Below, one piece after another: positions 32,634 through 39,487 of a stretch of DNA of 44,427 bases; the first letter of the stretch is position 1; the number at the start of each line of letters is the position of its first letter. The notes beneath the pieces are model-generated. The model ran no database searches, had not been told where the DNA came from, and saw only the letters and a program-made list of their open reading frames with translations. The stretch comes from Patescibacteria group bacterium (lineage in GTDB: Bacteria; Patescibacteriota; Patescibacteriia; UBA2591; JAQWAS01). The stretch spans positions 78,889-123,315 of the forward strand of contig JAQWAS010000002.1 of the NCBI GenBank assembly GCA_028707495.1, written 5' to 3'. A program made the position numbers and the translations under genes.

Positions 32634-32662
32634 TAAAAAAATATCCAAAAATGGATATTTTG
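32634..32662 (-). terminator. Terminator after the nested tRNA-Val(UAC) locus
   Basis: AAAATATCC / GGATATTTT stem around a short loop with a T-run on the minus strand, directly after the encoded CCA of the outer tRNA 3' half. Confidence 0.7.
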
Positions 32663-32718
32663 GTGGACGATGTAGGATTCGAACCTACGGCCTTCTCGGT
32701 GTAAACGAGACGCTCTAG

Positions 32719-32865
32719 CTTCACCCTCACACCTATTAACCTATTAATATAAAGGTGGACATGGTGGACGATGTAGGATTCGAACCTACGGCCTTCTCGG
32801 TGTAAACGAGACGCTCTAACCAACTGAGCTAATCGTCCTAAAGTTTTAATAGGTGTGAGGGCAAG
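32719..32865 (-). repeat. Inverted-repeat-bounded tRNA cassette 1
   Basis: Ends CTTCACCCTCACACCTATTAA at the left and its near reverse complement at the right; 16 bp match perfectly (32724-32739 with 32846-32861). A conserved asymmetric mismatch lies near the base. The cassette is 147 nt long and holds a complete tRNA-Val. Next to the left arm CCTATTAA is repeated. Confidence 0.8.
32762..32838 (-). tRNA. Inner tRNA-Val(UAC)
   Basis: A complete, canonical 74-nt tRNA plus encoded CCA (32762-32764). Acceptor GGACGAT/ATCGTCC, D-loop AGTTGGTTA, anticodon stem TCTCG/CGAGA with loop TTTACAC (anticodon UAC), T-arm GTAGG TTCGAAT CCTAC. It lies inside the D-loop of the outer tRNA in the same orientation. 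Confidence 0.95.
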
Positions 32866-32921
32866 TCTGAGCTAATCGTCCAAATTTTTAACACGAAAAT
32901 TATCTTGATTTAAAATGCTCA

Positions 32922-32974
32922 GAGTGGGACTTGCCAGCCTATAGCTGGTCAGCCTCTAGCTGAAACCCACATTC
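32922..32974. other. Small three-way-junction-like palindrome between tRNA genes
   Basis: GTGGG (32924-32928) pairs with CCCAC (32966-32970), enclosing two adjacent hairpins: CCAGC-CTATA-GCTGG (32934-32948) and TCAGC-CTCTA-GCTGA (32949-32963). The two inner hairpins look like a duplicated 13-mer. The element lies between tRNA-Leu and the nested tRNA-Val locus. Function is unknown. Confidence 0.55.
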
Positions 32975-32980
32975 TAAAAA

Positions 32981-33064
32981 TGCGGACGAGAGGATTTGAA
33001 CCTCCACAGGATTTCTCCCACAAGCCCCTCAAGCTTGCGCGTCTACCAATTCCGCCACATCCGC
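32981..33064 (-). tRNA. tRNA-Leu(GAG)
   Basis: 84 nt. Acceptor GCGGATG/CGTCCGC with discriminator A, D-arm TGGCGGAATTGGTAGACGC, anticodon stem CAAGC/GCTTG with loop TTGAGGG (anticodon GAG), long variable arm, T-arm TTCAAAT. CCA is not encoded. It lies 67 nt after rplS on the same strand. Confidence 0.93.
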
Positions 33065-33131
33065 ATAATTCCAACCTGGGCACAAATTATTAGTGTCATT
33101 AGCATTCAATAAGTATCATTGGTGTTGTGCT

Positions 33132-39059: not shown

Positions 39060-39202
39060 AATTTTATAATTAAAAAATTAAATTATTTTATCTATCTTTA
39101 ATATAACATTCTAAACAAATTGAAACAATTGTTAACTGTTTTTTTAGTGGGCGTACGTGGACTCGAACCACGGACCTTTTGAATGTGAATCAAACGCTCT
39201 AA

Positions 39203-39345
39203 CTTCACCCTCACATTTTAACAATATTTAAATTCAAAATTCTGATTTATGGTGGGCACATCTGGATTCGAACCAGAGACCTCTGCGATGTGAACGCAGC
39301 GCTCTAACCAACTGAGCTATGTGCCCATAAAAGTGTGAGGGCAAG
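39203..39345 (-). repeat. Inverted-repeat-bounded tRNA cassette 2
   Basis: Left end CTTCACCCTCACATTTTA (39203-39220); the right end (39328-39345) reads CTTGCCCTCACACTTTTA in reverse complement. The same CTT.CCCTCACA core and the same mismatch near the base appear as in cassette 1, but the upper stem differs. 143 nt, holding a complete tRNA-Val. Confidence 0.8.
39250..39326 (-). tRNA. Inner tRNA-Val(CAC)
   Basis: A complete 74-nt tRNA plus encoded CCA (39250-39252). Acceptor GGGCACA/TGTGCCC, D-loop AGTTGGTTA, anticodon stem CTGCG/CGCAG with loop TTCACAT (CAC), T-arm TCTGG TTCGAAT CCAGA. It lies in the D-loop of the outer tRNA, same orientation. Confidence 0.95.
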
Positions 39346-39487
39346 ACTGAGCTATACGCCCTCTATGCCAATTTTAATTTTATTTGTATTTTAAATATAA
39401 ACAATTAATCTAATAAATAATAATTGGGGTCTGGGGACGGTATTGAGCCACAGATATTTAAGCACCATCTTAAATTCGTTTTCTACC

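Follow-up and report, generated by a model that had tools for sequence, protein, structure and literature searches.

REP/BIME palindromic elements are moved by RAYT (Y1) transposases and carry a GTAG-type foot beside a hairpin. The tRNA-bearing cassettes described here resemble them in being short and apparently non-autonomous, with inverted arms, a fixed 4-nt foot and no target duplication, but their foot is CTTG or CCTG instead of GTAG, a whole tRNA lies between the arms, and they are sited in tRNA loops. MITEs are likewise small, with terminal inverted repeats and several same-ended copies; the cassettes differ from them in that target-site duplication was not seen and in their cargo, a tRNA with the anticodon of the broken gene. 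Genomic islands and phages that target tRNA genes encode an integrase and restore the tRNA end by att-site identity. The cassettes share with them the targeting of tRNA genes and the retention of a functional tRNA, but they leave the gene interrupted, supply a second whole tRNA and contain no protein gene. The double-hairpin elements of mitochondria place twin hairpins within genes, as do inserts found in the T-loops of some of the interrupted tRNAs reported below, and, unlike the cassettes, are without a tRNA. In archaea, permuted tRNAs are known beside split and intron-bearing ones. Archaeal split tRNAs, and archaeal tRNA introns that spread between tRNAs, are treated in one report (PMC10714607); like the loci described here, they combine interrupted genes with mobile sequence within tRNA genes. 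The present loci differ from the archaeal systems in that a search for RtcB, an RNA ligase, was negative, in that the insert has its own complete tRNA, and in that the interrupted tRNA is in some cases decayed. No description of nested bacterial tRNA genes was found in the open-access literature that was searched, most subscription journals lying outside its scope, and the first-pass annotation of the locus likewise knew of none.

The analysed DNA (the window) is a 44,427-nt stretch of a contig from a Patescibacteria group bacterium. On its minus strand, an outer tRNA-Val(UAC) gene is broken in the D-loop by a cassette containing a second, inner tRNA-Val(UAC), an arrangement referred to here as a nest. 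The 5' part of the outer tRNA, comprising one strand each of the acceptor and the D-stem up to position 16, lies at 32866..32881 and its 3' part, with CCA, at 32661..32718. Between them, the 147-nt cassette (32719..32865) is composed of the foot CTTG, the left arm CCCTCACACCTATTAA (32846..32861), a linker, the complete inner tRNA with encoded CCA (32762..32838), a second linker, the right arm TTAATAGGTGTGAGGG (32724..32739) and the foot TGAAG. The two arms form a 16-bp perfect inverted pair. These pieces, their common orientation, the cassette length and the perfect arms had been stated by the first-pass annotation, and all were confirmed at their positions. The inner tRNA is identical to both outer halves at all shared positions (15 + 57 nt, 72/72), and the outer halves, when joined, were identified by ARAGORN as tRNA-Val(UAC). 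The predicted fold of the 221-nt nest strand has z = -7.1.

The earlier account of a single nest holds for the UAC locus; it missed an equivalent nest in a tRNA-Val(CAC) gene 6.4 kb away (39145-39361), as well as leucine relics lying between the two. When the whole window was searched against Rfam at gathering thresholds, five matches were obtained, all of them tRNA and none an intron; sequence inspection at a weaker Rfam tRNA match (39148-39210) exposed the CAC nest. On the minus strand, this nest consists of the 5' part of the outer tRNA (39346..39361), a 143-nt cassette (39203..39345) with the ends CTTGCCCTCACA...TGTGAGGGTGAAG as in the UAC cassette, a complete inner tRNA-Val(CAC) (39250..39326), and the 3' part of the outer tRNA (39145..39202), which terminates in CTA in place of CCA. 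Its arms are 8 bp long and its predicted fold has z = -4.3. The ends CTTG-CCCTCACA...TGTGAGGG-TGAAG are shared by both cassettes, the linkers differ, and both cassettes contain only the tRNA and linkers, with no protein gene. The 12-mer CTTGCCCTCACA, with at most one mismatch, occurs twice in the 857-kb genome, each time within a tRNA-Val gene, while its reversed control gave one match; since the motif is confined genome-wide to these two genes, the shared ends of the window nests are not due to chance.

The CAC outer sequence differs much from the inner one, and its joined halves are still identified by ARAGORN as tRNA-Val(CAC). In both window nests all outer stems are intact, with fully paired acceptor and T stems, as the first-pass annotation had stated of the UAC outer, and in the predicted folds the cassette arms prolong the D-stem. 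The joined outer tRNAs lack the G18-G19 stretch of the D-loop, yet they were accepted by ARAGORN. Run on the window itself, the program reported only the inner copies, so nests of this kind can easily be missed in public genomes. Among the 47 complete tRNAs of the source genome, the inner copies are the sole complete ones with the UAC and the CAC anticodon, respectively. GUA codons should require a UAC anticodon, and with a single complete copy the inner UAC tRNA must therefore function unless the outer one does. Eight neighbouring proteins were checked for families; seven were assigned (ribosomal protein L19, guanylate kinase, pseudouridine synthase, PGA_cap, DUF3160, a LytR-type protein and a GTPase), one had no family match, and no mobile-element gene adjoining the nests was recognised among the eight.

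A third, decayed nest is probably represented by the tRNA-Leu(GAG) region at 32916-33082, between the UAC and CAC nests. Here, a complete tRNA-Leu(GAG), the probable inner copy (32980..33065), is preceded by what by eye is probably the decayed 5' end of an outer tRNA-Leu (33066..33082) and followed by a probable relic of its 3' half (32916..32970), all on the minus strand. The latter relic has a T-arm GTGGG...CCCAC, the loop of which is broken by a twin hairpin, and by-eye counting gave 6/7 acceptor pairs between the two relics. Hairpins resembling this one are present in the T-loops at loci L049, L056, L057 and L063. In another genome (G078, L112 1345-1460), a relic resembling the 3' part of tRNA-Leu(GAG) lies after that gene, and the Leu gene may have been replaced there too.

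Uninterrupted counterparts of the window nests were found in relatives. Of the tRNA-Val(UAC) loci that were readable in the order, 9/10 are uninterrupted, the ten coming from part of the 26 genomes. In G003, G006 and G012 the uninterrupted UAC locus has a tRNA-Leu(GAG) no more than ~200 bp upstream of it, an order also found in the window; in G014 the upstream distance is ~1 kb. Given these loci, the window UAC nest is most simply regarded as derived. A tRNA-Val(CAC) located between T2SSF and formamidopyrimidine-DNA glycosylase genes (Pfam) has no insert in G024 and forms a nest in G001, the two flanking proteins being 65% and 62% identical between these genomes; G004 likewise has an uninterrupted tRNA behind the T2SSF (type II secretion F-type) gene. 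For the genus pair G078/G107, no matching tRNA-Val(CAC) locus was found in G107. In G008 (L145), a second copy of the T-arm and acceptor lies downstream of an intact tRNA-Val(UAC), perhaps as a relic.

The distribution of nests was analysed with sequence patterns, since the long insert could not be bridged by a covariance model (R1) built on the extended D-arm. The first pattern, applied with one mismatch to 145 genomes, returned only the source genome and one chance match without a tRNA (L031). A nest pattern of two close D-arms matched in 18/380 genomes of the class and in 12/379 genomes of a phylum-wide sample, the source genome being included in both of these overlapping sets. A stricter pattern, run against the genomes of 84,980 species, gave eight records from seven genomes, all assigned to Patescibacteria by record title or NCBI lineage, and all eight were nests by eye. 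When the pattern matches were inspected singly, arms were seen in most; L064, L066, L068, L127 and L132 were cut, masked or weak, L127 and L132 being weak matches in which a clear right arm or the outer 3' half is absent. Five more loci (L086, L084, L100, L102 and L077), some of them badly decayed, came from a DNA search of 26 genomes in the order. It should be noted that the nest searches required an inner D-arm, so the intactness of inner tRNAs is no independent result; the inner tRNA of L077 was rejected by ARAGORN.

A simple scan found inverted arms of at least 8 bp around 22/34 nested tRNAs compared to 5/104 control tRNAs; in this count the arm scored for L061 is its outer acceptor stem, and the five positive controls include both window nests and a nest-like tRNA-Ile(UAU) of G217. 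This last gene (L056 638-711, minus strand) is located between arms CCCCGCCACCAAAAA and is perhaps a nest of another isotype. In viral contigs the CTTG pattern had 0 matches, and a wider pattern had five, which by eye resemble fragments of tRNAs, inside tRNA arrays or close to them, and have no cassette ends. Three viral loci (L184, L185 and L186) have tRNA 5' fragments directly before tRNA-like genes, those of L184 and L185 within tRNA arrays, and none of the three has the cassette ends.

Three sets of cassette ends were distinguished. In an alignment of 11 CTTG-type D-loop cassettes, in which L060 and L071 form one shared row and L050 is omitted for its decayed arm, ten of the left feet read CTTG and one CTTA, and ten of the right feet read TGAA. 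The arms vary among the 11 cassettes, yet 98.5% of the cells are paired and the covariation score is 0.96 compared to 0.23 after shuffling, with 0/500 shuffles as high in pairing or score; 10/12 arm pairs are changed on both sides, a count also reached by 25/500 shuffles. As the arms were selected as inverted repeats, their pairing is given by construction, and the informative part is the occurrence of differing arms on the same feet. The anticodon-loop cassettes of L050, L070, L072, L123 and L131 have the reverse complement of the CTTG-type ends (TTCACC...CAAG), the inner tRNA still having the orientation of the outer one. A third set, CCTGCCCGCC...GGCAGGCGGG, is inserted at 37|38 and surrounds a CAC tRNA (L061 and L067), a GAC tRNA (L074) or no tRNA (the second insert of L054); its left end is common to L062, L168 and L174. 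The pattern TNACACCTGCCYGCC gave 14 matches in 380 genomes, comprising by eye (i) seven anticodon-loop insertions with tRNA cargo, (ii) three without cargo, one in an already replaced outer tRNA and two relic-like, and (iii) four outside tRNA genes. The ends of the anticodon-loop cassettes of L063, L073, L124 and L133 fall outside the two main kinds.

Insertions in the D-loop follow position 16, 19 or 21, and most of those in the anticodon loop follow 35 or 37; the site is ambiguous in a few nests (L058, L065 and L130). Most CTTG-type sites have lost ~2 nt of the loop and CCTG-type sites none; inspection of the junctions by eye revealed no target-site duplication. When the feet beside GC hairpins were counted, CCTG and AAAA were the commonest (10/430 each), CCTG being 8.7-fold enriched, a count that is only suggestive because the loci had been picked around nests. 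GC-rich hairpin inserts, mostly twin, are present in the outer T-loops of L049, L056, L057, L063 and L065, and for most of them the letters of the loop are intact once the insert is removed. These hairpins may constitute a palindromic element family favouring tRNA loops.

The cargo of the cassettes appears to be interchangeable. L061 (G067) and L074 (G141, a member of another family) have a nearly identical cassette around a CAC and a GAC tRNA, respectively; the left part of the same cassette surrounds, in L168 (G128), a CAC tRNA that is itself broken, and L054 has the same ends at the same site without a tRNA. That almost one and the same cassette occurs in two families with different anticodons is the strongest sign of mobility and changeable cargo. 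Stacked nests, each of three levels by eye, were seen at L050, L059, L073, L074 and L168. In L059 an identical unit is repeated within itself, which suggests recent activity. At L123, a single outer tRNA, still recognised by ARAGORN, contains two same-anticodon cassettes.

To assess the outer tRNAs, 26 of them were joined without the insert, and 14 were recognised by ARAGORN and 12 rejected. The table of outer tRNAs omits L050, L055, L058, L064, L065, L066, L068, L077, L084, L086, L100, L102, L127, L128, L130, L132, L168 and L174, in which a half was missing or masked, lay at a contig end, or was unreadable or unannotated. The anticodon of the recognised outers equals that of the inner tRNA in 12/14, L070 and L123 having lost one anticodon base at the junction; under random pairing, 12/12 agreement has p = 6e-6. 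Eight of the 26 are broken or incomplete (L052, L059, L060, L062, L063, L072, L125 and L133); for L059, L060 and L062 no 3' end was entered in the table and none was seen. L062 lacks its 3' half, as does L126. The outer tRNA of L056 is cut at the contig end. In L073, L124 and L131 the damage is confined to the anticodon loop or arm, and almost all pairs of the acceptor and T stems are kept. The part of the D-loop in which G18-G19 normally lie has been lost from all ten CTTG-type D-loop outers of the table (in L060 and L071 base 16 happens to be G). Decay of the outer tRNA is thus common, not universal. Mutated outer halves around a conserved inner tRNA had been named by the first-pass annotation as evidence that would count against its proposal; what was found, 12/26 unrecognised (8 broken) and 14/26 recognised, is mixed, and speaks mostly against a functional outer tRNA in two pieces.

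Over 14 loci, the mean identity of inner tRNAs is 0.76 to their own outer and 0.75 to other inner tRNAs of the same anticodon (permutation p = 0.17), and 12/14 are only 64-80% identical to their own outer. The exceptions are the window UAC nest (identical) and L129 (91%). Inner and outer tRNA have the same orientation in every nest inspected. The outer tRNA of L086 has a D-arm unlike that of tRNA-Val and its isotype is unreadable; no intact relative of it was found in the 26 genomes.

We consider it probable (about 0.64) that the UAC insert, a hairpin-bounded cassette, is a small mobile element, which broke a tRNA-Val gene in its D-loop and supplies a working replacement. This reading is favoured by the conserved ends, interchangeable cargo, stacking, empty sites and partial outer decay, and it corresponds to one of two interpretations offered by the first-pass annotation; mobile replacement gained from the relatives, and the other, a two-piece tRNA, lost ground. 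The cassette would be non-autonomous and would move as DNA with the help of a trans-acting enzyme. This enzyme probably handles single-stranded hairpins, which is proposed because the inserts lie in tRNA hairpin loops and target duplication was not seen. Insertions without a usable tRNA would be lost, so that surviving nests bear a stand-in tRNA. On the transcript, cleavage by RNase P and 3' processing would set the inner tRNA free, after which the outer copy could decay and the inner one be hit by the next cassette.

As to the mobilising enzyme, a Y1-type transposase acting on single-stranded hairpins is a guess, and a rather doubtful one. Y1 genes are present in 14/21 nest genomes and 6/15 others (Fisher p = 0.11), one of the latter (G011) possibly holding a decayed nest itself (L102). 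No link between Y1 genes and cassettes was seen: a simple scan beside 10 such genes found no cassette-like hairpin (perfect 6-bp stems, CCTG or CTTG feet). That no enzyme could be tied to the cassettes speaks against the replacement reading, and other observations fit it poorly. The second insertion of L123 is not explicable by rescue of an already broken gene: the alternatives are a continuing role of the outer tRNA, a fusion of two nests by recombination, or a preference of insertion itself for a like tRNA. Rescue would not seem to demand so exact a match of anticodons, that of CAC among them; 14/26 outers are still recognisable; and the ends of L063, L073, L124 and L133 are of other kinds. 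The double insert of L123, the identical UAC pair and the unreadable outer of L086 are the reasons for which our confidence is held near two thirds.

The identity of the UAC inner and outer tRNAs (72/72) is what would be expected from local copying, and the pair could stem from a local copy or from a same-species donor. Taken further, this leads to an explanation without any mobile element, in which replication slips at tRNA hairpins and recopies the resident tRNA into its own loop. The 91% identity in L129, the unit repeated within itself in L059 and the uniform co-orientation of inner and outer tRNAs point the same way. However, most inner tRNAs (12/14) diverge by far more from their outers and the set as a whole is no closer to them than to other inners, while the same end motif is found phylum-wide and cassette bodies are common to genomes of two families; we therefore regard local duplication as unlikely to account for the nests. 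It is decidedly improbable that, once the inner tRNA has been released, the outer one works as two pieces held together by its acceptor and D stems and by the stem of the cassette. The fully paired acceptor and T stems of the window outers, kept even though the CAC outer differs much from its inner, the extension of the D-stem by the arms in predicted folds, and the 14/26 outers recognised as tRNA, L123 with its two inserts among them, are consistent with it, and the window outers, all stems of which are intact, may retain some function. That three of the 12 unrecognised outers (L073, L124 and L131) keep their stems raised the weight of this alternative and slightly lowered that of replacement. 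Against it, the G18-G19 stretch is gone in 10/10 tabulated CTTG-type D-loop outers, the 8/26 broken or incomplete ones would have to be exceptions, outer T-loops carry hairpin inserts (L049, L056, L057 and L063), L062 and L126 are without a 3' half, and the window CAC outer ends in CTA while 33/47 tRNAs of the source genome encode CCA.

Excision of the cassette in the manner of an intron, with restoration of the outer tRNA and the inner tRNA as cargo, would suit the CCTG-type inserts, the flanks of which join to full-length loops (A21|G22, 37|38), and the joined L054, L057, L061, L067 and L074 were accepted by ARAGORN. Removal of a CTTG-type insert, in contrast, leaves a shortened D-loop without G18-G19, and the conserved core of group I and other self-splicing introns is absent from the window, in which Rfam finds no intron. 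RtcB, the ligase covered by the search of nest genomes, was found in 0/8 of them, the source genome included, and in 9/14 controls. Splicing is accordingly very improbable. An assembly or binning artefact could be suspected from the identical UAC outer and inner repeats and from the draft state of the genome (19 contigs), but two different nests lie on one contig and nests with their own linkers recur in many assemblies, which makes such an error barely credible.

If the replacement reading is true, a piece of selfish DNA has become indispensable through its own copy of a core translation gene, without encoding a protein, and the cell depends for an isoacceptor on the one copy that belongs to the element. 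Engineered 'home-and-rescue' drives follow the same logic, which would here be contained in a package of ~150 bases. That Patescibacteria host a natural 'home-and-rescue' element of ~150 nt, which breaks a needed tRNA gene and substitutes its own in repeated rounds, up to three deep, seems to us a claim with even odds. Replacement of this kind would help to account for odd tRNA gene sets in reduced genomes and would show tRNA loops to be insertion hot spots in Patescibacteria. The nests would also be natural test cases for the release, by RNase P and 3' processing, of one tRNA from within another.

The source genome has some further tRNA peculiarities. Its 47 complete tRNAs include no tRNA-Lys(UUU), and a gap or an insert may conceal one. 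At C4:38302 there is an odd 73-nt tRNA called as Ser(GCT). On C3, from ~93180 (L099), an intact tRNA-Thr(TGT) is followed by a fragment resembling the 3' half of a tRNA-Thr, in which a hairpin replaces the T-loop.
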